This document shows positions 23,653 to 41,077 of a stretch of 55,979 nucleotides of DNA, one piece after another. The notes under the pieces were generated by a model, which was not told the DNA's origin, did not search any database, and saw only the letters and a program-made list of their open reading frames with translations. A program made the position numbers and the translations under genes. The stretch's first letter is position 1; each line of letters opens with the position of its first letter. The stretch comes from Armatimonadetes bacterium CG2_30_59_28 (lineage in GTDB: Bacteria > Armatimonadota > Abditibacteriia > CG2-30-59-28), in assembly GCA_001872605.1 (NCBI GenBank), contig MNXM01000228.1, positions 1 through 55,979 of the forward strand. Direction: 5' to 3'.

Positions 23653-23749
23653 GCTTCGCCCACTCCCTGATTCAGAACGGTTATCATTATAGCAGAAAAT
23701 CGCCCTGGACTGCCTCCCAGAACATCGCAGCAGTAGAATCTCTCGGCAT

Positions 23750-23779
23750 TTGTCACTCCTTCGTCCTCCATTGTATAAT
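23750..23779 (+). promoter_or_regulatory. promoter of the acyl/glycan operon
   Basis: TTGTCA and TATAAT are 18 bp apart, one mismatch from consensus. The predicted start near 23786 leaves a leader of about 58 bases before the first gene. It is the only good promoter I see before the long co-directional run to 40316. Confidence 0.75.
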
Positions 23780-23843
23780 CTCTTCGTTCCCGGGCTTGCC
23801 CCTGGTGAACCCGATTCCAACAAAATCATTGGAGGGAAAATCC

Positions 23844-24368
23844 CTGATAATCCGCGTGTTCATCGAGCAGTTCTACGAGAACCTGGAAGAGGCGACCATT
23901 GGCCGCTGGCTCAAGGCTGAGGGGGACCGCGTTGGCGACCAAGAGCCACTGGTCGAGATCATTACCGACAAGATCACCTTTGAGCTGCCGGCTCCCGGGT
24001 CGGGCGTCGTTCGCTCAATCATCTCCCGCGAGAAGAGCGTTGTTCCGGTAGGCTGCGTCATCGGACTTCTCGGTGAGCCTGACGATCCATTGCCCGACGT
24101 GTCCGCGGAAAACCGGGCAACGCTCGAACGCCGTCAGAGGGAGGTCGAGTCGCAGGCGCTCATTCCCTCGCCGGAGACAGTGGCTCCCGAAGCCTCTGTC
24201 AGCGAGCGCGTCCGGGATCGTGGCAAAGTGCGCGCCACTCCCGCGGCCCGTCGGGTGGCAAGGGAAAATGGCATGGACCTTGCCGAAGTCGCTGCCTCTA
24301 TCGGTGGCGGACTCATTCAGGAGGAAGACGTGCAGCGGTGGATTGAGCGGAGAGGAAGCAGCACATGA
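23844..24368 (+). CDS. lipoyl/PSBD protein lacking an acyltransferase domain (E2-like)
   Basis: The 174-residue protein resembles the front part of a 2-oxoacid dehydrogenase E2. Residues 1-75 are a lipoyl domain with the lipoyl-lysine in ITDKITFELPAPGSG. Residues ~130-170 are a peripheral-subunit-binding domain (RATPAARRVARENGMDLAEV). The ~230-residue catalytic acyltransferase domain is absent and the stop is in place, so this is a carrier arm without an engine. A matching E1 alpha/beta pair is encoded 5 kb downstream in the same run. The start appears to be CTG 23844: GGAGGG lies seven bases upstream and the lipoyl fold begins there (MIIRVFIEQF if initiated with Met). GTG 23856 is the fallback, but is 19 bases from the site and would clip the first strand. 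Confidence 0.85.
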   Translation: MIIRVFIEQFYENLEEATIGRWLKAEGDRVGDQEPLVEIITDKITFELPAPGSGVVRSIISREKSVVPVGCVIGLLGEPDDPLPDVSAENRATLERRQREVESQALIPSPETVAPEASVSERVRDRGKVRATPAARRVARENGMDLAEVAASIGGGLIQEEDVQRWIERRGSST

Positions 24369-24748
24369 TCTGGGGCAGCGGGGTGGACATCGTCGATACG
24401 GAACGCATCCGCCAGATGATCGACAGACACGGGGAACGGTTCCTCCGCAAGGTTTTCACTCCCAACGAAATCGCCTATTGCCAGCGCGGACGCAACCAGC
24501 ATGAGAACTTTGCGGCCCGCGTCGCCGCCAAAGAGGCCGGCGCCAAGGCCGTCGGCACGGGCTGGCGACAGGGGGTCCACTGGAAGAACTTCGAGGTGGA
24601 GCACGAACGTAGCGGAAAGCCGGTTCTCATCGTCTATGGACGCGCCCTGGAAATCATGGAAGAGGCCGGGGTCGTCAACAGCACTCTGTCCCTGTCGCAC
24701 GACGGAGGTCTGGCCGTGGCTCATGTGATCCTTGAGGTGAGGGACTGA
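24365..24748 (+). CDS. acpS: holo-[acyl-carrier-protein] synthase
   Basis: The 127-residue enzyme transfers phosphopantetheine from CoA to the serine of acyl carrier proteins. Both signature motifs are there: GSGVDIVDTERI, with the metal-binding Asp, and FAARVAAKEAGAKAVGTGW, with the catalytic Glu/Lys. Its ATG overlaps the stop of the lipoyl gene (ATGA). Its place in this operon, which also has an ACP fused to a glycosyltransferase, suggests that it activates that ACP, though it may serve the whole cell. Confidence 0.94.
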   Translation: MIWGSGVDIVDTERIRQMIDRHGERFLRKVFTPNEIAYCQRGRNQHENFAARVAAKEAGAKAVGTGWRQGVHWKNFEVEHERSGKPVLIVYGRALEIMEEAGVVNSTLSLSHDGGLAVAHVILEVRD

Positions 24749-24749
24749 T

Positions 24750-25499
24750 ATGGCACACGACGGAACGCCCAGAGTTGCTATAGTCACGGGAAGCTCACGA
24801 GGGATCGGGCGCGCCATTGCGCTGGAGTTGGCACACCGCGGTAGCCGCGTCGTCATCAACTACAGGGCGGGAAAAGACGCTGCGGAAGCGGTTCGGCGCG
24901 AAATTGAGTTGTCTGGAGGGGAAGCGCTCGTCGTTCGAGCAGACGTGAGCGTCGAGGCAGACGTGCGCACCATGATGGAGAAGACCATCGAGCAGTTCTC
25001 CAGACTGGACATTCTCGTCAACAATGCCGGAGTCCTGCAAGACAACTTCGTCTCCTTCATGTCAGAAGAACAGTGGGACTTGGTCCTTGACGTGAACCTC
25101 AAAAGCGCCTTCTTCTGCACCAAGCACGCCAGTAAGCAGATGGCGAAGCAACGCTGGGGGCGGATCATCAATATCAGTTCCGACGCGGGTCTGATGGGAG
25201 ACATGCTGCGGACTAACTACTCCGCAGCAAAAGCCGGACTGATCGGCTTGACCAAGTCGACTGCCCGCGAGCTTGCCGCTCGCGGAATAACAGCCAATGC
25301 GATTGCTCCCGGCTACATTGAAACGGACATGACGAGTGAATGGGCGGACCAGAAACGGAAGCAGATGCTGGAGCGAATCCCCATGCAGCGACTTGGCTCA
25401 CCGCAGGAAGTTGCTCGGGCGGCTGCATATCTCGCCAGCGAACAGGCATCCTATGTCACAGGGCAGGTACTCAGTGTCGATGGCGGTTTGCACATGTAG
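24750..25499 (+). CDS. FabG-like 3-oxoacyl-ACP reductase (SDR family)
   Basis: The 249-residue short-chain dehydrogenase has the NADP-binding VTGSSRGIGRAIALEL, the NNAG motif (ILVNNAGVLQDN), and the catalytic Ser-Tyr-Lys in NISSDAGLMGDM and NYSAAKAGLIGLTKS. The end SYVTGQVLSVDGGLHM is typical of FabG. It begins one base after acpS and probably reduces the beta-keto product of the operon's ketosynthase. A housekeeping fatty-acid role cannot be excluded. Confidence 0.9.
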   Translation: MAHDGTPRVAIVTGSSRGIGRAIALELAHRGSRVVINYRAGKDAAEAVRREIELSGGEALVVRADVSVEADVRTMMEKTIEQFSRLDILVNNAGVLQDNFVSFMSEEQWDLVLDVNLKSAFFCTKHASKQMAKQRWGRIINISSDAGLMGDMLRTNYSAAKAGLIGLTKSTARELAARGITANAIAPGYIETDMTSEWADQKRKQMLERIPMQRLGSPQEVARAAAYLASEQASYVTGQVLSVDGGLHM

Positions 25500-25503
25500 G
25501 CGG

Positions 25504-27456
25504 ATGGCAATTGACCCTGAGCGATTTCCTGTCCCACTCGTTCTCTCGCTAATTCTCAGTCTGACTGCCGGTCATGTTTCGGGGCAGGAAGCGAGCTCCG
25601 GTCTGCGCGACCGGCTTTCCGCTCTCGAAATATCAGCTCGCTCGCTCTCCCAACCGACGGGCAAGCTCTCCGAAGCGGTCCACCGCACCAACTACCCACT
25701 CCTGATGCTGAAGATCGAGAAGGCACGATTCCTGCTCGACAAGCAAAGCTCCTACTGGAAGTCATACACCAAGGACGCCGAGTTTGAGATTCGCGAAGGC
25801 GAGGTTCTGCTTCGGCTTCTTAAAGAAAACCGCCTCGCCTACGACAACGCAACGGGATGGCATGAGCGCGCGTACATCTCGGAGGCGGACGGTTCGGCTC
25901 AGCCCTTCTGGGTGTATCTGCCGCGCTCCTACACGCAGCCGGAGTATCGGGACCGGAGGTACCCGGTGATGGTGTTTCTGCACGGGTACGACACCAGTCT
26001 CACGAAGGCAGACCCCTGGACGCTGAGTCAGTCGATCCTCGAACTGGCCGATCAACGCGGCTACATCGTGGCGGTGCCATACGGAAGACGTAACACGGAC
26101 TTCGTCTCGATTGGCGAAGTGGACGTTCTTGCCGTTATTGCTGAACTGCAACGGCTGTTTCGTGTGGACGCGGATCGAGTCTGTCTCATAGGGGTCTCCA
26201 TGGGGGGCTACGGCGCTTACACCGTTGGACTGCATTACCCCGATCTGTTTGCCGCGATCATGGTAGTGTCGGGGCGAACGGATCACTACTTCTGGCAGAA
26301 GCTGGAGCGCCCCAAGGTTGCGGGCTTCAAGCAGTGGCTGATTGACGCGGACAACCCACTGACACTGGTGGAGAACGCCCGCAACCTGCCGATACTCATT
26401 GTTCAGGGCGGGGACGACAGCCTGGTGGATATTCGCCACTCTCGAAGGATGGCGGCGACACTGAAGGACCTCGGATTTACCTATCAATTCGATGAGTTGA
26501 AGAACGAGGACCACTGGATATACTTCGGAACCGACTGCTACGAACGAGCGTTTAACTGGTTCGACAAGCATCGACGCGACCTCTCCCCAAAGGTGATTAC
26601 TCACCACACCTTCTCCCCAAAGTACGGGAGAGCCTACTGGGCGGAGATTACCGCGTTCGAGCGATGGGGGAATCCCGCCGAAGTGCGAGCGGAGGTGACT
26701 GACGGGAACACGATCGAATTGATGACAGACAACGTGAAAGATGTCGTCATTCACTTCCCCACGCCCCGTCTTGACGAGAAGAAACCTGTCACGCTTCGCT
26801 GGAACGGAAAGGTGGTGTACGAGGGGAAGATAGGGAACCCGGGGCAGTGGTCGTCTGCAGAGGCGACGGTGCCGACCGGCGTCCACAAGGCGGGTCACCG
26901 ATGGGGGCCGATCAAGGAGGTCTTCAATGGGCCGCATATCCTTGTATTTGGCACAAAGGGGACGGATCGCAGCAATACTCGCCTCCAGAACAACGCGGTA
27001 CGGATGGCGGAGGAGTGGAGCCGGTTCGCCGACGGCGTCCCAACAATCAAGCCAGACTCGGAAGTAACGGAAGAGGACATCGAGCGCTTCAACCTGGTGT
27101 TGTTTGGCGACGAAAATCAGAACGAAATTGTCGCGCGTCTGCGGGAGCAACTCCCATTCACCGTGAAGGAAGGCGAGTACGCGATCGCCGGCAATACTTA
27201 CCGCGGTGACGACATCGGGTTCATGATGGTCTATCCGAATCCACTGAATTCCGGTCGATCTGTTCTGATACAAAGCGGCCTGTTCTGGGGAGACGCTTTG
27301 CCCATCAACCATAAGTTTGACCTTTTACCCGACTATATCGTCTACAATGACAAAGTTGACTACTCCGACAAAACGAATGAGTACCTTGTGGCAGGATTCT
27401 TTGACACAAACTGGAAACTCGACGAAACGCTGATCTGGAGGAGGGATAAGCGATGA
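25504..27456 (+). CDS. secreted alpha/beta-hydrolase (esterase/prolyl-oligopeptidase-like)
   Basis: The 650-residue exported protein starts at ATG 25504, four bases after fabG, with a signal peptide ending near HVSGQEA. Residues ~70-150 are helical, and ~150-360 an alpha/beta-hydrolase with the nucleophile in IGVSMGGYGAYTVG, the acid in VQGGDDSLVD and the His in KNEDHWIYF. The remaining ~290 residues look like two further domains (ITAFERWGNPAEVRAEVTDG and later), seen in large secreted PHB-depolymerase-like esterases. It may trim or release the product outside the cytoplasm. Why a secreted enzyme is encoded inside a biosynthetic run is open. Confidence 0.82.
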   Translation: MAIDPERFPVPLVLSLILSLTAGHVSGQEASSGLRDRLSALEISARSLSQPTGKLSEAVHRTNYPLLMLKIEKARFLLDKQSSYWKSYTKDAEFEIREGEVLLRLLKENRLAYDNATGWHERAYISEADGSAQPFWVYLPRSYTQPEYRDRRYPVMVFLHGYDTSLTKADPWTLSQSILELADQRGYIVAVPYGRRNTDFVSIGEVDVLAVIAELQRLFRVDADRVCLIGVSMGGYGAYTVGLHYPDLFAAIMVVSGRTDHYFWQKLERPKVAGFKQWLIDADNPLTLVENARNLPILIVQGGDDSLVDIRHSRRMAATLKDLGFTYQFDELKNEDHWIYFGTDCYERAFNWFDKHRRDLSPKVITHHTFSPKYGRAYWAEITAFERWGNPAEVRAEVTDGNTIELMTDNVKDVVIHFPTPRLDEKKPVTLRWNGKVVYEGKIGNPGQWSSAEATVPTGVHKAGHRWGPIKEVFNGPHILVFGTKGTDRSNTRLQNNAVRMAEEWSRFADGVPTIKPDSEVTEEDIERFNLVLFGDENQNEIVARLREQLPFTVKEGEYAIAGNTYRGDDIGFMMVYPNPLNSGRSVLIQSGLFWGDALPINHKFDLLPDYIVYNDKVDYSDKTNEYLVAGFFDTNWKLDETLIWRRDKR

Positions 27457-27508
27457 AGGTCACGTCACTGGACACTGGTCACGGGCTGCCTGTTGCTTGT
27501 CACCTGCC

Positions 27509-28726
27509 ATGAACCGAGTTGTCATCACAGGAGCAGGTCTCATCTGTTGCCTGGGAAGCGATCTTGAGTCTTTCTGGGAGCGTCTGCTCGCGGGTGAGTC
27601 GGGCATCGGACCAATTACCAAGTTCGATCCCACGGGACTGCGGAATGAAGAGGCCGGCGAGGTTGTTGACTTCGACTGGTCCCGCTACGCGGACGACGAG
27701 GTTGACGAGGCAACGCAATTTGCGTTTGCCGCAACTGCGGATGCGCTGATGGATGCTGGTCTGACAACGCGCGGCGCGCGCCTCTCCGCCGCCATTCCCG
27801 ATATCGGTCTCGTTTACTCCACAAACTTCGGGGGGGCGTACTCATGGGAAAGCTTCGTAGTTGCGTCGCGGGACGCGTCGACCGGCGCGGATGAAGCAGC
27901 CAATGATTTCAGACAGTTCCAGTTCCAGAGCGCATCGGAATACGTTAGACAAGAGTTGGAGCTGGGTGGGCTGGCGGCGACGCTCTCCAATTCCTGCTCG
28001 TCGGGCGTCAGCGCAGTGGGGATGGCGTTTGACCAGCTCCGTCTCGGCGACGCGGCGGTCATCGTCGCGGGGGGCTACGACAGTCTCGGTCTCTCGAGTC
28101 TGAGCGGCCTCAGCATTCTGCGAACCATCACCGCTGAGAAGTGTCGGCCTTTCGACAAGAATCGCAGCGGAACCATCTTTGGTGAAGGCGCGGGGATGGT
28201 GGTGCTCGAAGAGCTTGACCACGCAAAGGCGCGTGGGGCCAGTATCTACGCCGAGGTATTGGGGTACTCCCTCAACAATAATGCCTATCATCTGACTGCT
28301 CCTGATAAGGAAGGAGAAGGGATGGTGCAGGTGATTCAGCGGGCGATTGGCCACGCGGGCATTTCGCCCGACGCGATTGACTATATCAACGCCCACGGCA
28401 CGGGGACCCAGTACCACGATCCCGCCGAGATTCTGGCGATCAAGGCAGTGCTGGGAGACCACGCGTACAAGATACCGGTGAGTTCCATCAAGGCCGCCAC
28501 TGCCCATACGCTGGGGCCCGCCGGCGCTATCGAGTTGATAGCGACCGTACTCGCCACACGGGATGACATTGTGCCGCCCACGGTCAATTACGAGACACCG
28601 GACCCCGATTGCGACCTGGACATTGTCCCCAACCAGTCGAAGCCGTGGCCGGTGACTGCCGCGATGTCACTCTCGGCAGGGATTGGAGGGAACAACGGGG
28701 CGATCATCGTTCGATCGATGGACTGA
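27509..28726 (+). CDS. beta-ketoacyl-ACP synthase (KAS II type)
   Basis: The 405-residue enzyme is a full-length condensing enzyme. The active-site Cys is in TLSNSCSSGVSAVG, the two His are in DYINAHGTGTQYHD and IKAATAHTLGPAGA, and the Lys opens the latter. FGEGAGMVVLEE and the GIGGNNGAIIVR end are typical. It starts at ATG 27509; TTG 27497 is less likely. A 52-bp spacer of CACTGGTCAC-like words precedes it, the widest gap in the run. The next gene encodes a ketosynthase-like protein without the Cys, so the two may form a KS/chain-length-factor heterodimer. Confidence 0.93.
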   Translation: MNRVVITGAGLICCLGSDLESFWERLLAGESGIGPITKFDPTGLRNEEAGEVVDFDWSRYADDEVDEATQFAFAATADALMDAGLTTRGARLSAAIPDIGLVYSTNFGGAYSWESFVVASRDASTGADEAANDFRQFQFQSASEYVRQELELGGLAATLSNSCSSGVSAVGMAFDQLRLGDAAVIVAGGYDSLGLSSLSGLSILRTITAEKCRPFDKNRSGTIFGEGAGMVVLEELDHAKARGASIYAEVLGYSLNNNAYHLTAPDKEGEGMVQVIQRAIGHAGISPDAIDYINAHGTGTQYHDPAEILAIKAVLGDHAYKIPVSSIKAATAHTLGPAGAIELIATVLATRDDIVPPTVNYETPDPDCDLDIVPNQSKPWPVTAAMSLSAGIGGNNGAIIVRSMD

Positions 28727-28739
28727 TCCCCAGACTGGC

Positions 28740-29606
28740 ATGAATACGCCAATACACGTCACCGGAATCGGCATTGTGTCCTCGATCGGGATCGGTCGAG
28801 ACGAGTTTTTCGCGGCGGTACGCGATGGGCGCCGCAGGTCAGGAAAGATTGAGGACTTCTGCATCGAGGATTATCTCGAGACGGAGAAGACCTACCTCGA
28901 CCACTGTTCCGCATTTGCGCTCGCCGCTTGCGCCATGGCCCTTAAAGACGCCCAATTGCCCCCATCATGCATCCATCATCCGTCAGCTTCGTCCGGCATT
29001 TGCCTCGGCACCGCCCTGGGATGCCTGCAGACGATGGAGGATTTTTTTCTACGCGTGATCGAGAAGGGACCTCGCTACGCGAATTCGCTGCTGTTCAGTC
29101 ATTCCTATGCCAACTCCCCGACCAGCCTCGCGGCGATCGAATTTGGGCTTGCCGGTTACCACTCCACCGCCACATCGGGCGAGAGCTCAAGCCTGATCGC
29201 ATTAATGCAGTCTCTCAATGCTCTGCGTTTGGGGTATGCGGAGCGCATCGTCACTGGTGGAGTAGACGCGCTGTCCGAAGCGCTTCAGCGTGTCTGGGCG
29301 CAGATATACCCCGACCGAATGCCGGGCGAGGGGGCCGCGGTGTTCGTTCTCGAGACGGAAACCGCAGTCGTGGAGCGCGGTCTCCAGCCGGCGGCATTCC
29401 CCCGGATCGTTGTACAGTCCGCCCACTGCGACGGTGCATCTCCGGCCGCTGATTCCATCGAGCGCGACATCGGGTTTGTCGTGGGAGCCATGGACGCATT
29501 CAACACCGCCACGGCCATGGGGGAACTCGAGGACGCCGCATCGAAGCAGGTCGCGGCGTTGTCTAACAGCACACCGCAATATCAGATTCTCCTGTCAAGG
29601 GATTAA
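28740..29606 (+). CDS. truncated ketosynthase-like protein without catalytic Cys (chain-length-factor-like)
   Basis: The 288-residue protein is similar to the N-terminal two thirds of KAS enzymes: PIHVTGIGIVSSIGIGRDEF at the start, SGICLGTALGCLQTMEDFF in the middle, and RLGYAERIVTGGVDALSEAL after the elbow. Counting back from the GG of VTGG, the Cys position holds Glu in TSGESSSLIALMQ. The region with both catalytic His is missing, since only ~100 residues follow. It cannot condense by itself. Chain-length factors of type II polyketide and aryl-polyene systems are similar inactive partners, although they are full length and usually have Gln there. It begins 13 bases after the active ketosynthase gene. 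Confidence 0.8.
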   Translation: MNTPIHVTGIGIVSSIGIGRDEFFAAVRDGRRRSGKIEDFCIEDYLETEKTYLDHCSAFALAACAMALKDAQLPPSCIHHPSASSGICLGTALGCLQTMEDFFLRVIEKGPRYANSLLFSHSYANSPTSLAAIEFGLAGYHSTATSGESSSLIALMQSLNALRLGYAERIVTGGVDALSEALQRVWAQIYPDRMPGEGAAVFVLETETAVVERGLQPAAFPRIVVQSAHCDGASPAADSIERDIGFVVGAMDAFNTATAMGELEDAASKQVAALSNSTPQYQILLSRD

Positions 29607-29608
29607 TC

Positions 29609-30610
29609 GTGGACGACAAACAACTTCTCGCAGACTACCGTCGGATGCTGCTCATTCGGCGGTTCGAGGAAAAGCTGGACTCGCTCTTCACATCCGGTGT
29701 CATCAAGGGCACGTCGCACCTCTACGCGGGCCAGGAGGCCGTGGCGGTGGGCGTCTGCGCGGCGCTTCGATCAAACGACTTCATGACCAGTACGCACCGC
29801 GGGCATGGACACCTGTTGGCAAAGGGTGCGGACCCGAAGCGAGTAATGGCCGAACTCTTCGGAAAATCCACCGGTTACAGCAAGGGCCGCGGCGGCAGTC
29901 AACATACCGCCTGTGCGGCGGTGGGCTTTCTCGGCTCCAACGGCATTACTGGCGGAGGAATCCCCATTGCCACCGGCGCCGCGCTGGCCGTGCAGATGAC
30001 GGCGTCAGCGCCGCTGACGAAAGACGGACACGCGGGAAGGAACCGCGCGCACCCCGACGCTGTCGTTGTGTGCTTCTTCGGCGAGGGCGGGGCCAGCATC
30101 GGCATGTTTCACGAGAGCCTCAACATGGCGGGAATCTGGAAACTGCCGATCATCTATGTTTGCGAAAACAACCTCTATGCGATGTCGGTCCCACTGCATG
30201 AGGAATCTGCGGTTCAAGACATTGCCCACCGAGCTGAGTCGTACGGGATGCCCGGCGTGATTGTGGACGGCTGCGACTACTTTGCCGTCGCCCGGGCGGT
30301 CGCCGAAGCTGCTGCACGCGCAAGGGCAGGCGAAGGGCCGTCGCTACTGGAGGCGAAGACCTACCGATACTACGGACACAGCAAATCGGACAAACGGGAG
30401 TACCGCACACGCGAAGAGGAAGCGTCCTGGAAGAACCGTGATCCCATCCTCCTGCTGGGAACGAAGCTGCTGGAGACAGACGTCTTAACCAAAGATGCCC
30501 AGCTGCAAGCACTTCACGAAGTGGATGCAGAGGTTGAGGCCGCGGTGGAGTTCGCGGACAACAGCCCGGAACCTGATCCCGCTGCGGTGCTTGATGAGGT
30601 GTTTGCCTGA
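29609..30610 (+). CDS. 2-oxoacid dehydrogenase E1 component, alpha subunit
   Basis: The 333-residue ThDP enzyme subunit matches pyruvate, acetoin or branched-chain dehydrogenase E1 alpha. Landmarks are LIRRFEEKLDSLFTSGVIKG, STHRGHGHLLAKG, KGRGGSQHTACAAVGFLGSN and the ThDP fold CFFGEGGASIGMFHESLNMA ending in ENN. The usual GDG of the Mg/ThDP motif reads GEG. About 20 extra residues (TKDGHAGRNRAHPD region) sit just before that fold. GTG 29609 is preceded by AAGGGA and lies 2 bases after the previous stop. It should pair with the beta subunit next door and load the lipoyl protein at 23844. The 2-oxoacid is unknown. Confidence 0.93.
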   Translation: MDDKQLLADYRRMLLIRRFEEKLDSLFTSGVIKGTSHLYAGQEAVAVGVCAALRSNDFMTSTHRGHGHLLAKGADPKRVMAELFGKSTGYSKGRGGSQHTACAAVGFLGSNGITGGGIPIATGAALAVQMTASAPLTKDGHAGRNRAHPDAVVVCFFGEGGASIGMFHESLNMAGIWKLPIIYVCENNLYAMSVPLHEESAVQDIAHRAESYGMPGVIVDGCDYFAVARAVAEAAARARAGEGPSLLEAKTYRYYGHSKSDKREYRTREEEASWKNRDPILLLGTKLLETDVLTKDAQLQALHEVDAEVEAAVEFADNSPEPDPAAVLDEVFA

Positions 30611-30613
30611 CTC

Positions 30614-31597
30614 ATGCGAGAAATGTTCTACTCCCACGCTATCCGTGAAGCCATCGCTGAGGAGATGGAGCGCGACCCCAATGTCTTCCTTCTCGGCGAA
30701 GACGTGGCCGAGTACGGCGGCGCGTTTAAAGTGACTCAAGGGCTGGTGGGGCAATTCGGGAAGGGCCGGATCCGCAACACCCCTATCTGCGAAAACTCGT
30801 TTGTCGGAGTTGCGGTTGGAGCTGCGATGCTTGGCATGCGCCCTGTCGTCGACATCATGTTTCAGGATTTCATCACTCTGGCGATGGACCAGATCGTCAA
30901 TCATGCCTCGAAAATTCATTACATGTACGGTGGTCAGTTGAGTGTGCCCATCGTCATCCGCACGCCGGCGGGAGGAGGACGCTGCTACGGACCGACCCAT
31001 TCGCAAAGTCTGGAAGCCTGGTTCATGCACGTGCCGGGACTCAAGGTGGCTGCTCCCGCAACAGCCCACGACGCCAAAGGAATGCTGAAGGCAGCCATAC
31101 GAGACAACAACCCCGTAGTATTTGTTGAAAGCAAGCTGTTGTACGGGCAGAAGGGACTCGTGCCCGAAGAGGACTATGTGGTTCCACTGGGCCAGGCGAG
31201 GGTCGTCCGGGAAGGCGAACACCTCACCCTGATCGCCTATTCCCGCATGGTGGGAGAGGCAGAGCGCGCCGCCACCGCCCTGGATCGAGAAGGGATATCC
31301 TGTGAAGTCATCGATCTGCGAACTCTCGCTCCCCTCGATCTCCAGTCCATCGCAGACTCGGTGGTGAAGACCGGACGGGCCGTGGTGGTGGAAGAAGGAT
31401 GCCTGACGGGTGGCGTCGGCGCAGAGGTAAGCGCGCAGATCGTGGAGAACTGCTTTGACTACCTCAATGCCCCCGTCCAGCGCGTTGCGGCTTTGGATGT
31501 CGCGGTTCCCTGCGCCGACGCTCTGGAGCGCGCCGCCTTGCCGGACGCTGGAAAGGTTATGGCAACTGTGCGACAATTGATGCAGAAATACGGCTGA
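30614..31597 (+). CDS. 2-oxoacid dehydrogenase E1 component, beta subunit
   Basis: The 327-residue subunit shows VFLLGEDVAEYGGAFKVTQG, NTPICENSFVGVAVGAAMLG, VIRTPAGGGRCYGPTHSQS and VVVEEGCLTGGVGAEVSAQI, the standard E1 beta landmarks. The transketolase C-terminal domain is complete. It begins 3 bases after the alpha stop. No complete E2 or E3 gene is present in the window, so either the complex borrows them or the acyl group leaves by another route. Confidence 0.95.
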   Translation: MREMFYSHAIREAIAEEMERDPNVFLLGEDVAEYGGAFKVTQGLVGQFGKGRIRNTPICENSFVGVAVGAAMLGMRPVVDIMFQDFITLAMDQIVNHASKIHYMYGGQLSVPIVIRTPAGGGRCYGPTHSQSLEAWFMHVPGLKVAAPATAHDAKGMLKAAIRDNNPVVFVESKLLYGQKGLVPEEDYVVPLGQARVVREGEHLTLIAYSRMVGEAERAATALDREGISCEVIDLRTLAPLDLQSIADSVVKTGRAVVVEEGCLTGGVGAEVSAQIVENCFDYLNAPVQRVAALDVAVPCADALERAALPDAGKVMATVRQLMQKYG

Positions 31598-31612
31598 AAG
31601 GGGTGATCAGTG

Positions 31613-33396: not shown

Positions 33397-33399
33397 GGC

Positions 33400-34251
33400 T
33401 TGTCCGGCATCGAGACACCGATGTTCCTCGCAAGCGAAGGCCGTCGGATCTTCGCGGTGTGGCATCAACCGGCTGCCGATGCGGGGAAGGTAACCGATAC
33501 CGCTTTCGTTTTCTGCCCTCCATTTGCCGAGGAGGAAAAGTGCTGCCATCGCGCGTTCGTGGACATGGCGCGGAAGTTGTGCAGTCGCGGACACCCCGTG
33601 CTGAGAATCCAGTACCGGGGGTGTGGTGACAGCGAGGGCGATTTCGGCGACTTCTCCTGTGCAGACTGGGAGCAAGATATCAACAACGCTCTTGCCTTCC
33701 TGCGGCGGCAGGGCCGCCCCAGGCTGGGTCTGCTCGGCCTGCGGTTGGGGGCGTCCTTGGCAGGCCGGGTTGCCGAGAGTACGGGCGACGTGCAGAATCT
33801 GATCCTCTGGGAACCCATTGTCAACGGGCGGCAATACATGTCCCTCAACCTTCGCCGCAAGTTGCTCCGAAGGATGCTGACGGATAAGGAAGGTGGAGAG
33901 TCCCCTCCCGCTTCTCAGGCAACCATGACGGACGGACGGACGGGGATCGACTTCGAAGGCTACTGGATCTCCGCCGAGATGCAGACGCAGATCGGGGAGA
34001 TTGATCTCATTGCTGATGCGAAGAGATTCCGCGGCGAGGTTCTGCTGACACAGATTTCTTCTCAAAGCAGCCCCGGCAAGACGATCCGTTCCCTCGAGGA
34101 CAGATACGCGTCGGCTGGCGCGAGCGTTGCGGTCGAGGCAGTGGTGGAGCAGCCCATCTGGAACCTGCTCGACCTGTTCCACCCCACCCAACTGATTGAC
34201 TCGACCATCGACTGGATGCTGGCGCGCAACAGATGCGTGGTGGAGCGATGA
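33400..34251 (+). CDS. exosortase-A-system-type hydrolase 2 homologue
   Basis: The 283-residue alpha/beta-hydrolase-fold protein matches the hydrolase 2 family of PEP-CTERM/exosortase loci: FVFCPPFAEEEKCCHRAFVD, QYRGCGDSEGDFGDFSCADW and LLGLRLGASLAGRVAE. In the nucleophile elbow G-L-R-L-G the expected Ser is Arg, as I recall for this family. ILWEPIVNGRQYMSLNLRRK is also diagnostic. It may bind rather than hydrolyse an acyl or glycan. It begins at TTG 33400, three bases after the ACP stop; ATG 33421 is an alternative. No exosortase gene is in this window. Confidence 0.82.
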   Translation: MSGIETPMFLASEGRRIFAVWHQPAADAGKVTDTAFVFCPPFAEEEKCCHRAFVDMARKLCSRGHPVLRIQYRGCGDSEGDFGDFSCADWEQDINNALAFLRRQGRPRLGLLGLRLGASLAGRVAESTGDVQNLILWEPIVNGRQYMSLNLRRKLLRRMLTDKEGGESPPASQATMTDGRTGIDFEGYWISAEMQTQIGEIDLIADAKRFRGEVLLTQISSQSSPGKTIRSLEDRYASAGASVAVEAVVEQPIWNLLDLFHPTQLIDSTIDWMLARNRCVVER

Positions 34252-35114
34252 GCGTTCAGCAGACCGTCACCTTTAAGTCGGCCGGGAAACAACTGGTGGG
34301 CGTCATCCAGCGTGCGGGGGCGCCGTGCGGCGCCGGGGTCGTGTTTGCACATGGCTGGTCCGGTTACCGTGTTGGGCCGCACGGGATGTTTGTGCATTGC
34401 GCGCGGCGCCTTGCCATCGAAGGGATTCCCTCACTTCGCTTTGACTTCCGCGGCCGCGGGGACAGCGAGGGTGAACTGGAGGACGCCAGCCTCATCACCA
34501 TGGCGGCTGACATGAGTCCTGCCGTAGATTGCCTCATCGAGCGTACGGGCGCCAACCAGGTCTTCCTGGTGGGCATCTGTTCCGGCGCCGAGGTGGCCTT
34601 CGCCGCGGCGACATGCCACTCGGCCATCGCCGGACTGGCGCTCTGGTCTGCGCCCGTCTTCTGGGCTGACGCGGCGGAGGGAGAAGAGATCAACACCGCG
34701 GAAGTTGCCTCGAGAAAGAAGAGGTACTATGCAGCAGAATACCTCCGCAAACTCCTCCGACCTGAAACCTGGAGTAAGCTCTTCAGCGGCCGCATCCAGT
34801 TCGGGATTGTTGCACGAGTTCTCCTGGCACGCAGGAAGTCAACGACCGACATAGATAGCGCGACCACACCGCAGGAATGGAGGCGGAATGTCCTCCGCGA
34901 GTTCGCAGGCTTCGGCGGGAAGGTGCTGGGCGTCTACGGTGCGCATGATCCCACCACGGGACAGGCGCTGCAATGGTATCAATCGCTCTGCACGGATTAC
35001 GCAATCCCATACTCCCACCACCTCGTTCAGGGCGCCAATCACAGTTACTACTCACTGGTGTGGGAGCGAGAGGTCATGGAGAAGACGTTATCCTGGCTGA
35101 AGGAGAACCGATAA
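34248..35114 (+). CDS. exosortase-A-system-type hydrolase 1 homologue
   Basis: The 288-residue alpha/beta-hydrolase is the partner family, hydrolase 1: GVVFAHGWSGYRVGPHGMFV, LRFDFRGRGDSEGELEDASL and the elbow VFLVGICSGAEVAFAA, where the nucleophile position is Cys. VYGAHDPTTGQA and GANHSYYSLVWE hold the candidate acid and His. Its ATG overlaps the previous stop (ATGA). In exosortase loci these two hydrolases and an ACP sit beside glycan genes, the same company as here. Confidence 0.82.
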   Translation: MSVQQTVTFKSAGKQLVGVIQRAGAPCGAGVVFAHGWSGYRVGPHGMFVHCARRLAIEGIPSLRFDFRGRGDSEGELEDASLITMAADMSPAVDCLIERTGANQVFLVGICSGAEVAFAAATCHSAIAGLALWSAPVFWADAAEGEEINTAEVASRKKRYYAAEYLRKLLRPETWSKLFSGRIQFGIVARVLLARRKSTTDIDSATTPQEWRRNVLREFAGFGGKVLGVYGAHDPTTGQALQWYQSLCTDYAIPYSHHLVQGANHSYYSLVWEREVMEKTLSWLKENR

Positions 35115-35118
35115 AACC

Positions 35119-36288
35119 GTGCCCGCTCGGATTCTCTACGTCAACCATGTCTCACAGATGAGCGGGGCCGAGCACAGCCTCCTCGGACTTCTGACGACAC
35201 TGCCGCGGGACCGTTTTGAGCCAATTGTGGCCCTGCCTGATGAGGGTCCGTTGCGTAATCGCGTGGAAGGGTTGGGGATCGAGACTGTCAGCGTTCCCCT
35301 TGGGCGTCTCAAGAGGTCTTTGCAGCCGACGCACATGCTGGATTCCTTGAACAGGATATATCGGTCCAGACAAGCGCTCAAGGCGTTCTGCCAACAGCGA
35401 GACATTTGCCTGATACATTCCAACAGCACACGAGCGCACTTCGCGGGCGGCCACGCCGCCCGGTTGCTCGGCCTTCCCGCAATCTGGCATTGCCGCGACC
35501 TCACGGACATCCCTATTTGCAAGGGGATGTTGGGACGAACAGCCACAAGCATCGTGGCCATCTCCGAGGCCGTCCGGCTTTCCCTCGTCCGACAGGCGTT
35601 TTCGCCAACGAAGATACGCGTGATCCATAACGGAGTCGATGTCGATCGCTTCCAGCCGCGTCCCCCGGACGAGGAGCTTTGCCGGCGATACGCCGTACCG
35701 GAGAACGGCTTTGTCTTTGCCATCATTGGTCAGATAGTGCCCTGGAAGCGGCACGACCTTTTTCTCGCCGCCGCTGCTCGAATAGCTCCGGCCTTCCCGC
35801 AGGCGCGGTTCTGGATCATTGGAGACGACCTGTTCAACGATCACCCCGAATACTGCCGACAACTGAGACGCCGCGCAGATGAGCCAGATTTGAGAGCTCG
35901 CGTTGTTTTCACCGGCTTTATTGAGGCGATTGATCGTGTCCTGTCCTCCGTTCAGGCCGTTGTGGTGCCATCGGACAACGAGCCTTTTGGGCGCGTCGTT
36001 ATCGAGTGCATGGCGGCGGCGAAGCCGGTCATTGCGACGCGCGCGGGAGGGCCGGTCGAGATCATCGAGAACCATCATACCGGTATTCTGATCCCGCCTG
36101 ATAACATCAACGCACTGACCGACGCCATGCAGGAGCTGCTGAAACGATCCCAATGGCGGGACCGCCTCGGACGCGAAGCGCGGGAGCATGTCTGTAACAA
36201 TTTCAGCCTGACAAAAAACACGACGAATACCTGCCAACTCTACGAGGAGCTCCTCCGACCTGACAACGTCAGGAGCACATCACCATGA
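35119..36288 (+). CDS. GT4 family glycosyltransferase
   Basis: The 389-residue GT-B enzyme transfers a sugar from a nucleotide donor. The N-terminal domain begins RILYVNHVSQMSGAEHSLLG (gene start GTG 35119). The C-terminal domain has IRVIHNGVDVDRFQP, FAIIGQIVPWKRHDLFLAAA and the EX7E motif in NEPFGRVVIECMAAAKPVIA. It lies 4 bases after hydrolase 1 and overlaps the next gene by ATGA. Sugar and acceptor are unknown. Confidence 0.92.
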   Translation: MPARILYVNHVSQMSGAEHSLLGLLTTLPRDRFEPIVALPDEGPLRNRVEGLGIETVSVPLGRLKRSLQPTHMLDSLNRIYRSRQALKAFCQQRDICLIHSNSTRAHFAGGHAARLLGLPAIWHCRDLTDIPICKGMLGRTATSIVAISEAVRLSLVRQAFSPTKIRVIHNGVDVDRFQPRPPDEELCRRYAVPENGFVFAIIGQIVPWKRHDLFLAAAARIAPAFPQARFWIIGDDLFNDHPEYCRQLRRRADEPDLRARVVFTGFIEAIDRVLSSVQAVVVPSDNEPFGRVVIECMAAAKPVIATRAGGPVEIIENHHTGILIPPDNINALTDAMQELLKRSQWRDRLGREAREHVCNNFSLTKNTTNTCQLYEELLRPDNVRSTSP

Positions 36289-37439
36289 AGATTGGGATAG
36301 ACGGAACGCTTCTGCATGGCAACTACTCGGGAGTCGAGTACTCCATCCACCACCTGCTGAATGCGCTGGTTGCGGATGACCGCGAGAACAAGTATATCAT
36401 TCACGTTGGCGCCAACTTCCAGCCGGACCCCACGAGCCCGACCAACTTCGAGTGGAAACACACCTCGTTTCCCGCGACCCGCCGATTGAGGAGAATCTTC
36501 TGGCAACAGTGGCAGCTACCACCGCAGCTTCTGCTCGATGGTGTAGACGTCTTTCACGGCCCCGGCTACATCACGCCCGTCCACTGTCCGGTTCCGTCCG
36601 TCGTTACAGTTTACGACGTCATCGCACTTACTCATCCTGAACTTTGCAGCATGGGTAACCGGCTGCACTACCGATGGATGCTCCCCAGAGTGCTGCGACG
36701 CGCCACGCGAGCGATCGTCCCCTCGGAAGCTGTAAGAGACGATGTCCTCCATCTCTTCCCCGAGATCACAGACAGGATTCGAGTTGTTCCGTTGGGCATT
36801 GACGGAGCTTTCTTCGACCAGCCGGACACGGAAACGCTGGGGCGTGTGCGGGCGAAGTACCATCTGCCGGAGCACTTTATACTGTTCCTGGGGAACCTGG
36901 AGAGGAAGAAGAATCTCTCCCTGCTTGTCCAGGCGTTCAGCGAACTGAAAGCCGCGAGCGTAATCCCTCATCGCCTCGTTCTCGCGGGGTGCCTGAAGAC
37001 TGCAACAGAGGACCTGCACAAATCCATTGAGGACACGGCAGCAGGGGCCACCATTCGCCTGCTCGATTACGTCCCGGGCGAAGACCTCCCGTCACTCTAT
37101 CAACTGGCGGACGTGTTTGTGCTCCCTTCTCTCGTGGAGGGATTCGGGCTCCCTGTGCTGGAGTCAATGGCTCTCGGAACACCGGTAGTTGCCTCCAATC
37201 GAGGCGCGCTTCCGGAAATCGTCGCCGACGCCGGTCTGCTGTGCGATCCGGAGGACAGAGTATCTCTCACCGATGCACTCCTGCGCCTCATCACCGACGA
37301 GGGTCTTCGGGACCGCCTCATCGAGGCAGGCAGAATTCGCGCCCGGCAGTTCACATGGAAGACCGCGGCAAGACGGGTGATGGCGATTTATCGGGAAGCC
37401 TTTGACGCCGGGGCCAGCAACGACAAGGGGCGCCTCTAA
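36285..37439 (+). CDS. GT4 family glycosyltransferase
   Basis: The 384-residue GT-B enzyme starts KIGIDGTLLHGNYSGVEYSI. The C-terminal domain carries FILFLGNLERKKNLSLLVQA and the donor-site LPSLVEGFGLPVLESMALGT (E-x7-E). Mannosyltransferases often have the wording FHGPGYITP and AIVPSEAVRDDVLHLFP, but I cannot fix the sugar. It is the second of three consecutive GT4 genes. Confidence 0.92.
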   Translation: MKIGIDGTLLHGNYSGVEYSIHHLLNALVADDRENKYIIHVGANFQPDPTSPTNFEWKHTSFPATRRLRRIFWQQWQLPPQLLLDGVDVFHGPGYITPVHCPVPSVVTVYDVIALTHPELCSMGNRLHYRWMLPRVLRRATRAIVPSEAVRDDVLHLFPEITDRIRVVPLGIDGAFFDQPDTETLGRVRAKYHLPEHFILFLGNLERKKNLSLLVQAFSELKAASVIPHRLVLAGCLKTATEDLHKSIEDTAAGATIRLLDYVPGEDLPSLYQLADVFVLPSLVEGFGLPVLESMALGTPVVASNRGALPEIVADAGLLCDPEDRVSLTDALLRLITDEGLRDRLIEAGRIRARQFTWKTAARRVMAIYREAFDAGASNDKGRL

Positions 37440-37440
37440 C

Positions 37441-38640
37441 GTGAGTGGCAAAACCATCGGCTACATCCTCGGTCAATTCCCATCGCTCACGGAGACCTTT
37501 ATCCTGCGGGAGATACGGGAACTGGCGCGACAGGGCGTGGCGCTCCGGATATTCTCACTGAGGAAACCCGCGAGTCGGTTCGCATCACTGCCTCCCGCGT
37601 TACAGGACGTTGAGGTGCACTATGCCCCAACGAAGTTTGCGGGGAGATTCTGGGTCGCAGCCGCGCACAGAGCGCTCCTTGCCGGACGCGGCAGTCCCAC
37701 CGTAGCCGCGGCATCGCAGGCGTGGCTGCCCCTGTTGAGAGCCCATCCGGAGATATGTCACCTTCACGCCCACTTCGCGAATGAACCGTCCCTCACCTCG
37801 ATGGCGTTGAGTCGGGCGACCGGGTTGCCATTCAGCTTTTCGGCCCATGCGTGGGATATCTACTGCTCCGACGCCCCGTTGCGTCAACTCATCCAGGAAG
37901 CCTCGTTCGTTACGACGTGCACGCAGATGAACGTCGATCATCTCCGTTTGGTCTGCCGTCAAAACGACGTCAACAGGATTAACCTTGTCCGGCACGGGTT
38001 GGACCTCAGTGACTTCCCGCGTCCGGTAACGTATCGCTCCGGACAACGGCGCGATCCACAGAGTCCCTTCCGTTGTGTGGCCATCGGGAGGCTCATCGAC
38101 AAGAAGGGATTCGGCACACTGATCACGGCAATGGCGTCGTTGAGGGAAATGTCTCTGCACGTCGAGTGCGCCATCATCGGCGAAGGATCGCAGAGGATGC
38201 TTCTCGAAGAACTCGTGGTCGCCGCGGGTGTCCAAGATTGCGTGCACTTCCGCGGCGCGCTGTTACACTCTGACGCTATTGATCAACTTCGGCAGGCCGA
38301 TGCGCTCATTGTGCCGTCGGTGGTCACACCGGAGGGCGACCGCGACGGGTTGCCGAACGTGATATTGGAGGCCGCCGCTCTCGGCATCCCCATCATCGCC
38401 AGCGACCTGCCGGGAATACGCGAGTTCGTGGATCACCGGGACACCGGACTTGTCACTGCGTCGGGAGATGTGGAGTCCCTTGCACAGGCCATTCGGGCAC
38501 TCCTCGAAGAGGATGATACAATGACTGAACAGCTGCGCCACAATGCTCGACGAAAGATCGAAACGGAATACGATATTTCGCAGAACATACGGCCGCTGGT
38601 CGAGCGATTCACCCACAGCATGGAACAGGAAGGTACATGA
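37441..38640 (+). CDS. GT4 family glycosyltransferase, colanic-acid type
   Basis: The 399-residue enzyme begins at GTG 37441, one base after the previous stop: GKTIGYILGQFPSLTETFIL. CHLHAHFANEPSLTSMALSR and LPFSFSAHAWDIYCSDAPL are typical of the WcaL-like branch. The donor site includes VAIGRLIDKKGFGTLITAMA and GDRDGLPNVILEAAALGIPI. It overlaps the flippase gene by ATGA. It probably adds a late sugar to the repeat unit. Confidence 0.92.
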   Translation: MSGKTIGYILGQFPSLTETFILREIRELARQGVALRIFSLRKPASRFASLPPALQDVEVHYAPTKFAGRFWVAAAHRALLAGRGSPTVAAASQAWLPLLRAHPEICHLHAHFANEPSLTSMALSRATGLPFSFSAHAWDIYCSDAPLRQLIQEASFVTTCTQMNVDHLRLVCRQNDVNRINLVRHGLDLSDFPRPVTYRSGQRRDPQSPFRCVAIGRLIDKKGFGTLITAMASLREMSLHVECAIIGEGSQRMLLEELVVAAGVQDCVHFRGALLHSDAIDQLRQADALIVPSVVTPEGDRDGLPNVILEAAALGIPIIASDLPGIREFVDHRDTGLVTASGDVESLAQAIRALLEEDDTMTEQLRHNARRKIETEYDISQNIRPLVERFTHSMEQEGT

Positions 38641-40316
38641 ACGAAGAAAACAGCCCAACCAGCAACCTCACTGGAACAGAAACGACAACAGACACACCGT
38701 CGGGCGCGTCCACCGGGAAGCACATCGCGAAGGCGACCGGCGGGATCATGATCTTTCATGTCCTGCGATTCATGCTGGGATTCATGGAGAAGCCGCTTAT
38801 CGCGCATTACTTCGGGACCACCTCCGTAGCCGACGCGTACACCGTGGCCCGTGACATCGTGAATCGCATCTGGCTTATCTTCGAGAAGGTGGTCAATCCC
38901 TCGTTCCTTCCGTGCTTCATCCAATCGCTGAAAGATGATGGAGAGGAACGCGCTTGGAGCTTCACCAATACTGTGGCCACTATCATGACCGCGCTATTGG
39001 TCGTCACAATCACAGTGGCCTGGTTCATCACTCCTCCCCTTGTTAATTTCTACACCCGCAATCCGCAGCGGGGAGAAATTGAGCTGACCATTCTGTTAAC
39101 CCGGACCATGATCTTTGGTCTGCTCTTCCTTGGGTTGTCCTCCCTCACCTACGTCATTCTGAATGGGTACAAGCGCTTCGCCCTCGCCGCGATGGGGGAT
39201 ACCATCTGGAAAGGATCCATCCTTGCCGCGGTGGTCTTTGGCGTTCCCTATCTCCTCAAGCACTCGCAAGGGCTTGAGTCCGTTGCCGTTGTTGCCCTCG
39301 CGGTCGGTTTCCTCGTGGGAAGTTTCGGGAAGCTTCTCCCCCAGCTTATTGGTCTTTATCACAAGCGTCACCTGTTCCGCTTCTCGGTGTTGTGGGACGA
39401 CCCCACTTTGCGCCGGATGGGACTGCTGATTCCTCCCCTGCTGGCAGGAATCATTGTCTCCGAATTCCGCGGCATGATGATGGTCAAGTTCGCGAATGCG
39501 CCACAAATCGGGGAAGGGGGACGAGCGGCGCTGAACCAGTATTCCCGGCCGCTCATTGACGCTCTCATCTTTATCTTCCCATACGCCATGAGTATCGCAA
39601 TTTTCCCCTATCTCTCCCAATTGCACGTTTCCAAAGAGAAACAAGCGTTCACGGACACCTTTATGGGCGCGTTGAGGGTCTGTGCATTCTTCTTTATTCC
39701 CCTCACCGTGGGATTTATCATGTTCTGCCAGCCCATCATCCGGGCAGTCTTCGAGGGGGGGAAATTTGGCGCGGAATCCCTCGCGCTGACGGTTGGGCCG
39801 TTTGTCTGCTTCAGCGCTGGCATGGTGTTCTTTGCATCTGAAACCATCGTCAACCAAACATGGTACTCCACGGCCAACACCCTGGTGCCGAACACGGTTG
39901 GCATCGTCACCAGCCTCCTTGCGGTACTCTTCGCCTGGTGCGCGGTTGAGACTGGTCATGGACTGGAAGGCATTGCCCTCTCCGAGACGCTGGCGAAATC
40001 GACGAAGGTCATCATCCTGATCTTCCTTCTCCGTGGCTGCATGGCCAATATGCGCCTCCGGAAGCAGGGGCCATTTCTTCTAAAAGTGCTTGTCTCTTCC
40101 GCGGCACTGGCCGCGTTCGGATCATTGGCAATGCACGTGACTGCTCCGATCTGGACTGCAGAATACACTAAACTGATACGCATCGAGCGGCTGGCTGCCG
40201 TTGCAGTAACGTTGGGGGGGGGTCTGTTGGTTCATATCGCGGTGGCGAAGGCGATAAAAATCGAGGAAGCCGAATACGTGATCGAGTTTGTGCGGAAGCG
40301 AATGAAGAGAGGGTAA
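38637..40316 (+). CDS. murJ: MurJ/MviN-type lipid-linked precursor flippase
   Basis: The 559-residue protein has about 14 membrane segments after a polar ~30-residue head. The family is shown by EKPLIAHYFGTTSVADAYTV near the start, FLPCFIQSLKDDGEERAW, and AIFPYLSQLHVSKEKQAFTD with the later RAVFEGGKFGAESLA. MurJ flips lipid II; in glycan clusters relatives flip lipid-linked oligosaccharides in place of Wzx. As the last gene of the run it likely moves the finished product across the membrane. It could also be the cell's peptidoglycan flippase, since no other copy is visible here. Confidence 0.9.
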   Translation: MNEENSPTSNLTGTETTTDTPSGASTGKHIAKATGGIMIFHVLRFMLGFMEKPLIAHYFGTTSVADAYTVARDIVNRIWLIFEKVVNPSFLPCFIQSLKDDGEERAWSFTNTVATIMTALLVVTITVAWFITPPLVNFYTRNPQRGEIELTILLTRTMIFGLLFLGLSSLTYVILNGYKRFALAAMGDTIWKGSILAAVVFGVPYLLKHSQGLESVAVVALAVGFLVGSFGKLLPQLIGLYHKRHLFRFSVLWDDPTLRRMGLLIPPLLAGIIVSEFRGMMMVKFANAPQIGEGGRAALNQYSRPLIDALIFIFPYAMSIAIFPYLSQLHVSKEKQAFTDTFMGALRVCAFFFIPLTVGFIMFCQPIIRAVFEGGKFGAESLALTVGPFVCFSAGMVFFASETIVNQTWYSTANTLVPNTVGIVTSLLAVLFAWCAVETGHGLEGIALSETLAKSTKVIILIFLLRGCMANMRLRKQGPFLLKVLVSSAALAAFGSLAMHVTAPIWTAEYTKLIRIERLAAVAVTLGGGLLVHIAVAKAIKIEEAEYVIEFVRKRMKRG

Positions 40317-41047: not shown

Positions 41048-41077
41048 TGGCGGATTGGAAAAACCGCCCTCCTGTCT
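41048..41077. repeat. TGGCGG-TTG palindrome, copy 1
   Basis: TGGCGGATTGGAAAAACCGC with the following CCTCCTGTCT can form a GGCGG/CCGCC hairpin. It overlaps the stop of the giant gene and matches 53556-53585 at 23 of 30 positions without gaps. It lies between convergent genes and could also serve as their terminator. Confidence 0.6.

Follow-up and report, generated by a model that had tools for sequence, protein, structure and literature searches.

A co-inherited gene set in Armatimonadota combines a lipoyl carrier, a ketosynthase pair and glycan assembly genes

Organisation of the locus

The window analysed here is a contig of 55,979 nucleotides (MNXM01000228.1; C123 in our numbering) from the genome of Armatimonadetes bacterium CG2_30_59_28, which comprises 5.49 Mb in 344 contigs. 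It carries a run of 16 co-directional genes on the + strand between approximately 23844 and 40316 (Table 1). The acyl half of the run encodes a free lipoyl carrier (Lip) with a peripheral subunit-binding domain (PSBD), AcpS, FabG, a ketosynthase (KS), a Cys-less KS partner resembling a chain-length factor (CLF) and the alpha and beta subunits of a thiamine diphosphate (ThDP)-dependent E1 (E1a and E1b). The glycan half encodes a family 2 glycosyltransferase (GT2) fused to an acyl carrier protein (ACP), two alpha/beta-hydrolases (hydr2 and hydr1), three family 4 glycosyltransferases (GT4a-c) and a MurJ-type flippase. This set is conserved in relatives, and its genes very probably belong to one pathway.

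A first-pass annotation, made from the letters of the sequence, had described fifteen co-directional genes. The run is real, but the esterase at 25504-27456 (Est) had been missed. The tight spacing was found as described, with junctions between -22 and +13 bp and a sole exception of 52 bp between the esterase and KS, and all of the named families are present on the + strand according to Pfam and TIGR searches. The -22 bp junction depends on the assumed start of GT2-ACP and becomes a 4-bp overlap with the alternative GTG at 32248. MurJ and the following PduO gene are separated by 61 bp, and the G+C content of the window is even (0.56-0.61). For the good promoter proposed in front of the run, the site at 23750-23779 matches at 11 of 12 positions, but five such sites occur in the region compared to a mean of 6.0 (standard deviation 2.5) in shuffled sequences. 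As the number of sites is not above that of the shuffles, the promoter is unproven. An open frame of 351 aa without Pfam match (22774-23829, - strand) runs divergently from the operon and overlaps the promoter-like site.

Near the start of homology, the lipoyl gene lacks an ATG; CTG 23844, preceded by GGAGGG, or TTG 23829 is available, and one of the two is likely the start. The esterase occupies the same position in G001, G003, G004 and G005. The Uma2-type gene is probably a local insertion outside the conserved set, because the E1b-GT2 junction was free of Uma2 in the relatives scanned. A second Uma2 adjoins CLF in locus L148 (G064).

Table 1. Genes of the co-directional run, with the family matches on which their naming rests.
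Gene product	Position	Strand	Family match
Lipoyl carrier with PSBD (E3-binding), no E2 catalytic domain	23844..24368	+	PF00364 and PF02817 only
AcpS, phosphopantetheinyl transferase	24365..24748	+	TIGR00516 over cut-off
FabG, 3-oxoacyl-ACP reductase	24750..25499	+	TIGR01830, 316 bits (cut-off 298)
Est, alpha/beta-hydrolase esterase, 650 aa, signal-like start	25504..27456	+	PF00756/PF00326
KS, FabF-like, catalytic residues intact	27509..28726	+	PF00109/PF02801
Cys-less KS partner (CLF-like), C-terminal half shortened	28740..29606	+	PF00109 only
E1 alpha, ThDP enzyme	29609..30610	+	PF00676
E1 beta	30614..31597	+	PF02779/PF02780
Uma2-type gene	31610..32251	+	PF05685
GT2 fused to ACP; start possibly GTG 32248	32188..33396	+	PF00535 and PF00550
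hydr2, alpha/beta-hydrolase, Arg at nucleophile place	33400..34251	+	TIGR03101, 148 bits (cut-off 203)
hydr1, alpha/beta-hydrolase, Cys at nucleophile place	34248..35114	+	TIGR03100, 124 bits (cut-off 168)
GT4 a	35119..36288	+	PF00534/PF13439
GT4 b	36285..37439	+	PF00534/PF13439
GT4 c	37441..38640	+	PF13692/PF00534
MurJ-type flippase	38637..40316	+	PF03023

Co-inheritance within the phylum

Co-inheritance was surveyed in 291 genomes of Armatimonadota, the phylum of the window. CLF was found in 52 genomes (48 by score and four by synteny) and GT2 in 53. Both occurred together in 50 genomes, CLF only in two, GT2 only in three and neither in 236, and the two co-occur even in genomes in which they are unlinked. 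The genomes counted as CLF-positive are the 48 with at least 216 bits plus G041, G141, G004 and G005 (164-192 bits), which were added by synteny; matches taken as generic FabF reach 199 bits. When the 21 genomes used for building the profiles were excluded, the counts were 30 (both), 1 (CLF only), 3 (GT2 only) and 236 (neither), and under a strict score 46, 2, 7 and 236. The presence lists were copied by hand from the search outputs, and Fisher values serve as a guide only because the genomes are related.

The public model TIGR03100, which is independent of the loci, matches hydr1 in 49 of the 291 genomes, of which 44 are CLF-positive. G006 and G290 have a TIGR03100 match and neither CLF nor GT2. 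The CLF-positive genomes are spread over 18 of 45 labelled families. Family f30 contains six genomes with both genes and nine with neither, and members of genera g50 and g155 are found on both sides; some of these genomes are incomplete. Given these mixed groups, the pattern does not reflect only one ancient split. Exosortase, which was used as a control, is present in 240 of the 291 genomes, namely in 41 of 52 CLF-positive and 199 of 239 CLF-negative ones (Fisher p 0.43). A FabH match was seen in all 52 CLF-positive genomes (list read by eye). The first-pass annotation had named a lack of conservation in relatives as the finding that would speak against a joint role; the set turned out to be conserved, both in these counts and in its gene order.

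Conservation of the gene order

To survey the order, the operon proteins were compared by tblastn with 20 loci, and family hidden Markov models (HMMs) were run on the window plus 64, 34 and 10 loci, some of them included twice. The shared order is Lip-(AcpS)-FabG-(Est)-KS-CLF-E1a-E1b-GT2-ACP-hydr2-hydr1-GT4a-b-c-MurJ. Its recurrence in other families and in more remote genomes shows that the arrangement is not due to chance. G001 has the entire set, truncated at both contig ends, and G003 carries Lip-AcpS-FabG-Est-KS-CLF-E1a-E1b-GT2-ACP-GT4a. Long versions start from Lip in G264, G265, G267, G268 and G131 and from KS in G076 and G115. AcpS is not present in many of the loci scanned by family HMMs, and KS and CLF form a single open reading frame in G131.

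After removal of repeats and counting by script, the distance between KS and CLF is at most 2.5 kb in 48 of 56 CLF loci, and E1a follows CLF immediately in 37. E1b precedes GT2 in 25 of 39 GT2 loci, with Uma2 in between in the window. ACP follows GT2 within 4 kb in 32 of these 39 loci, hydr2 in 29 and hydr1 in 24. The set is split in G097, G069, G051, G271, G275 and G286, where E1a stays with KS-CLF and E1b with GT2-ACP-hydr-GT4 on another contig. The split falls between CLF and E1a in family f5 and between E1b and GT2 in family f12.

A scan of genome contigs with E1 alpha gave at least 80 loci, mostly of ordinary E1 alpha, and KS/CLF beside E1a in L045, L054 and L092. L054 and L092 were taken as identical to G090:C234 and G146:C327, which leaves L045 as the new one among the matches listed. 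L045, titled uncultured Lentisphaerae and identical to G291, carries Lip-FabG-KS-CLF-E1a-E1b. Among 148 genomes around L045, the KS partner was well above the generic level in five (G291, G413, G295, G302 and G412); the title given to L045 and its place at the centre of the search are the grounds for assigning this group to another phylum. G413 and G412 have Lip-FabG-KS-CLF-E1a-E1b-GT2-ACP-hydr2-hydr1-GT4a in a single stretch. E1a-E1b-GT2-ACP-hydr2-hydr1 (G302) and GT2-ACP-hydr2-hydr1 (G291) were found on other contigs, and in G295, GT2 lies apart from ACP and the hydrolases within the stretch seen. GT2 scored 371-397 bits in all five CLF-positive genomes of the group, and the next best of 26 genomes tested reached 298 bits; 12 of 21 CLF-negative genomes tested from these surroundings carry a weaker GT2 relative (260-298 bits). 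No relative was found in the viral contigs scanned with GT2-ACP.

Residues and relationships of the acyl half

Conserved residues were counted over aligned rows after removal of repeat retrievals of a stretch and of matches that were short or weak. KS keeps C-H-H-K in 45 of 45 rows with at least 480 bits and at least 330 aa; the KS of G413 and G412, split into two pieces and weaker at 410 bits, falls outside this census. The active-site column of the CLF-like partner has no Cys in any of 54 rows, in which the G002 gene is counted twice. The lipoyl Lys is kept in 26 of 26 rows (domain of about 160 aa) and the ACP Ser in 35 of 35. In FabG, Tyr and Lys are kept in 29 of 29 rows and Ser in 25. The PDB sequence matches of the operon proteins were mainly FabF, pyruvate dehydrogenase (PDH) E1, GT2 and esterase/hydrolase entries, and the esterase entries are presumably serine enzymes.

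E1 alpha has the histidines of the HRGHGH motif in 48 of 48 rows, while the Asp of GDG is replaced by Glu in ten, the window included. The Glu of the GED motif of E1 beta is kept in 32 of 32 rows. One further position of E1 beta aligns with His128-beta of human PDH, which we take to act there in lipoyl acylation. The His is found in the window (residue 139), in G001, G021, G007, G034 and G015 and in five rows of the G291 group; the other 21 of 32 rows have Ala, Ser, Asn or Gly. The fused E1 encoded on C205 of the same genome as the window also has Gly at this position.

Of the 128 E1 alpha sequences placed in a tree, 47 are members of the system, and these make up a single group (SH-aLRT 99) to the exclusion of the 81 others. 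The group consists of E1 alpha proteins inside the loci, or outside them in CLF-positive genomes. The others come from named genomes and from the remaining E1s of the window's own genome, the named ones being a partial sample obtained from a scan with this E1 family. The tree was built with a quick method using SH-aLRT without bootstrap, has some long branches among the others, and leaves out E1a rows below 260 aa and three duplicate loci.

Conventional counterparts are present elsewhere in the genome of the window. An 899-aa AceE-like E1, an E3 (these two identified by reading the translations) and an E2 are encoded on C245. A second E2 is found on C255, an E1a/E1b pair on C325 and the fused E1 on C205. 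The two PF00198 matches of the genome lie on C255 and C245, and the operon carrier has none. FabH is encoded on C317, with FabG, ACP and a FabF-type KS in the same stretch. With these genes and the dedicated E1a group, the E1 of the operon does not look like part of an ordinary complex, a case that the first-pass annotation had named as speaking against a joint role.

The glycan half and its neighbourhood

The fusion of GT2 with ACP was seen only in the window among 14 loci; the two are separate genes in the 13 others, which makes the GT-bound ACP proposed earlier a fusion local to the window. In G004, a PAP2 phosphatase gene separates GT2 from ACP; BLAST links point to further copies in G005 and G002. 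In G131, a pyruvate-formate-lyase-like glycyl radical enzyme is encoded between GT2 and ACP (L035, 4520-6769).

The hydr1 rows all have G-x-C-x-G (25 of 25), and Asp and His are present where the rows reach the C-terminus. At the nucleophile place of hydr2, Arg was found in 28 of 28 rows. Both counts include repeats and thus represent fewer genes. A triad with Cys resembles that of PhaC. By its Cys motif alone, hydr1 is a candidate acyltransferase, and hydr2 is probably a non-catalytic partner. The earlier designation of both as exosortase-type hydrolases is misleading: TIGR03100 and TIGR03101 are their nearest families, but they score below the cut-offs and exosortase does not track the system.

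The MurJ of the operon (189 bits) is the second copy in the genome, the other (338 bits) being encoded on C46. Past MurJ, a fourth GT4 follows in nine of nine loci inspected there. Directly after it, LipB was found in six of the nine: in G265, G131, G275 and G271, TIGR00214 was over its cut-off in four of four (and Pfam LplA-B_cat in the one scanned), and the copies in G051 and G277 were recognised by BLAST link. No LipB follows the fourth GT4 in G268, G076 and G126, nor is there one in the window locus. A Wzy_C-like protein (below cut-off) comes next in G131, with BLAST-linked copies in G277, G265 and G126.

Large open frames of approximately 1300-1750 aa were seen at L175 102-5075, L178 14640-19877, L180 10825-14775 and L183 17-3895. 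Such frames at the locus edges have weak mutual similarity and occur in both genome groups; it is possible that they encode a surface acceptor. In the window, PduO is followed by an opposite-strand frame of 4133 aa (41076-53477, - strand). It has a signal-like start and, by eye, many segments resembling one another, and looks like a giant surface protein beside the glycan operon. Upstream of the run, two genes for signal recognition particle (SRP) GTPases, FtsY- and Ffh-like, lie on the opposite strand.

Proposed pathway

Gene set, residues, order, co-inheritance, the dedicated E1 group and the linkage of LipB and MurJ were observed, and from these we infer every reaction of the following scheme. 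The locus would encode a single conserved pathway whose product is an exported glycan with acyl modification, formed by way of a lipoyl-primed mini-synthase of the type II polyketide synthase (PKS) kind and a 3-hydroxyacyl-ACP. We consider the chances of this reading to be about evenly balanced. The idea of a joint pathway, already put forward in the first-pass annotation, is well supported by the conservation, and LipB, which adjoins the glycan genes of six relatives, adds a further link.

E1 with ThDP would decarboxylate a 2-oxo acid, either pyruvate or a short or branched one, and acylate the dedicated lipoyl carrier. As the carrier lacks the coenzyme A (CoA)-transferase domain of an E2, the acyl group is presumably not sent to CoA, and the PSBD may recruit the E3 of the cell. 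The KS/Cys-less KS pair is the natural taker of the acyl group in the set and would condense it with malonyl-ACP. FabG would then reduce the condensation product, which may stay as a 3-hydroxyacyl group on the operon ACP activated by AcpS. Given the presence of FabG and the fact that neither dehydratase nor enoyl reductase was found among the operon proteins in family scans, the predicted product is a 3-hydroxyacyl-ACP. Subsequently, hydr1 with its Cys, together with the Arg-bearing hydr2, is the prime candidate to move the acyl group from ACP to a sugar added by GT2; alternatively, GT2 could glycosylate the ACP-bound hydroxyl. GT4a-c would lengthen the glycan and the extra MurJ would flip it outward.

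A more specific version seems quite unlikely to us. It states that the route from E1 via acyl-lipoyl to KS/CLF is independent of CoA and that the 3-hydroxyacyl-ACP is itself the acceptor of GT2, so that the glycan would be grown on the ACP-tethered chain, released or transferred by the Cys hydrolase and flipped.

Several observations weigh against the proposed pathway. The E1 beta position aligned with human His128-beta is His in only 11 of 32 rows, and the FabG Ser is replaced by Ala or Thr in four of 29. Malonyltransferase, dehydratase and E3 are all absent from the locus and would have to be supplied by the cell. E1a does not adjoin CLF in 19 of 56 CLF loci, several of which are cut by contig ends. 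Eight CLF-positive genomes have no TIGR03100 match and five genomes have a match without CLF. G126 keeps GT2-ACP-hydr-GT4-MurJ in a locus without CLF, E1b and LipB, which means that the glycan part can exist alone. Finally, G299 has KS-CLF-like-GT2-ACP (L216, 7.5-10.7 kb) with no E1 or lipoyl carrier in the stretch, and may represent a related system with a different acyl source. A DUF362/4Fe-4S protein is encoded upstream of this run.

Alternative explanations

The KS/CLF pair might iterate and form a longer hydroxylated or polyketide chain with an E1-derived starter, which would be the lipid anchor of the glycan in analogy to aryl-polyene or resorcinol-type systems. CLF-type partners set the chain length, MurJ and the chain of glycosyltransferases suit a lipid-linked oligosaccharide, and the PDB matches include the two-subunit KS entries 6smo and 1tqy, although FabF and 9s5h entries score higher. 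However, dehydratase, cyclase and aromatase were found neither among the operon proteins nor in the scanned neighbours. Furthermore, AmcB, the best-scoring characterised ACP family for the operon ACP domain, serves a single C2 elongation pair according to the accessible text of PMC10698177. On this evidence, iteration is unlikely, but still an explanation with some weight.

It is less probable that E1 acts as a ThDP carboligase adding a two-carbon unit to a sugar, an alternative raised in the first-pass annotation, and that KS/CLF performs an independent acylation within that glycan pathway. The loss of the E1 beta His in 21 of 32 rows would fit such a role, as would the split loci that place E1b with glycosyltransferases. 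Still, lipoyl chemistry is indicated by the invariant lipoyl Lys and by the LipB gene adjoining the glycan genes, and E1a directly follows CLF in most CLF loci. A carboligase is also a poorer match than the acyl route for a set with a lipoyl carrier, LipB, KS/CLF and FabG. We thus regard it as improbable.

The remaining three explanations, ordinary PDH parts, exosortase association and FabH replacement, are all disfavoured by the evidence against each. E1 and the lipoyl protein might be surplus components of an ordinary 2-oxoacid dehydrogenase that came into a glycan operon by accident; this agrees with the families, which are the same as in ordinary complexes, but is very improbable in view of the dedicated E1a group, the order kept in distant genomes, the missing E2 catalytic domain of the carrier and the conventional complex genes elsewhere in the genome. 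An exosortase/PEP-CTERM-associated exopolysaccharide (EPS) locus is suggested by the nearest families of hydr1 and hydr2 and by exosortases in most genomes of the phylum; it has hardly any likelihood given that TIGR03100 is over its cut-off in none of the 291 genomes, that exosortase shows no association with CLF and that the window's own genome yielded none. If the set replaced FabH in starting the synthesis of branched-chain fatty acids, it would need the very parts present (an E1-derived acyl group, KS, FabG, AcpS and ACP), but with FabH on C317 and a match in every CLF-positive genome this is the least credible of all.

The proposed pathway, which leads to an acyl-modified exported glycan, would bring together fields that are usually studied separately, since the co-inherited set joins lipoyl chemistry, KS/CLF chemistry and surface-glycan assembly. 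If it is true, it represents an unusual use of lipoate and a CoA-free feeding of type II synthases, with an E1 subfamily of its own and, in relatives, a LipB of its own. The pathway would further imply that poorly cultured bacteria carry an acyl-modified surface glycan, for which mass spectrometry offers a means of search, and an ACP-tethered start, if true, would be a new way of beginning a lipid-linked glycan. Concerning annotation, the data suggest that the name exosortase-associated hydrolase can mislead, as hydr1 with Cys and hydr2 with Arg travel with an ACP pathway.

Comparison with known systems

Literature searches on the set, its parts and precedents gave no description, as judged by titles and the starts of abstracts, with subscription papers mostly outside reach. 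The closest comparisons come from two natural product systems. In the naphthyridinomycin (NapB/NapD-NapC) and dnacin genes, a two-component transketolase-type ThDP enzyme loads an ACP, according to the accessible text of PMC7570522. As far as described there, the likeness is that an assembly line has a dedicated ACP which receives a small unit from a ThDP enzyme; the donor, however, is a ketose phosphate and the line a non-ribosomal peptide synthetase (NRPS), while here a PDH-like E1, a free lipoyl/PSBD carrier, KS/CLF, FabG and a glycan line are combined.

In the cispentacin/coronafacate system, AmcH ligates intact 2-oxoglutarate to ACP with ATP (PMC10698177, accessible text). AmcF-AmcG and AmcB resemble the operon in having a KS with a KS-like partner, a dedicated ACP and a 2-oxo-acid starter, but no AmcH-type adenylating loader was found among the operon proteins. 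Neither pyruvate dehydrogenase nor lipoyl is mentioned in the accessible cispentacin text, and the accessible parts of PMC7570522 and PMC10698177 contain neither a free lipoyl carrier nor a glycan line.

With 2-oxoacid dehydrogenase complexes, the operon shares E1 alpha and beta, a lipoyl domain with its Lys and PSBD. It differs from them in having no E2 core or E3 in the locus and in being set among KS/CLF and glycosyltransferases.

Exosortase-A-associated EPS loci likewise combine hydrolase 1 and hydrolase 2 with glycan genes. In contrast, hydr1 and hydr2 remain below the family cut-offs, and no link to exosortase was seen across the phylum.

Aryl-polyene clusters contain KS, CLF, a FabG-like ketoreductase, a phosphopantetheinyl transferase (PPTase), ACP and sometimes a glycosyltransferase. 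Unlike these, the operon has no dehydratase, ammonia-lyase or AMP-ligase (neighbours were scanned in some relatives), and its starter apparently comes from E1. The likeness to type II PKS systems lies in the intact KS adjoining its Cys-less partner, the dedicated ACP and the PPTase.

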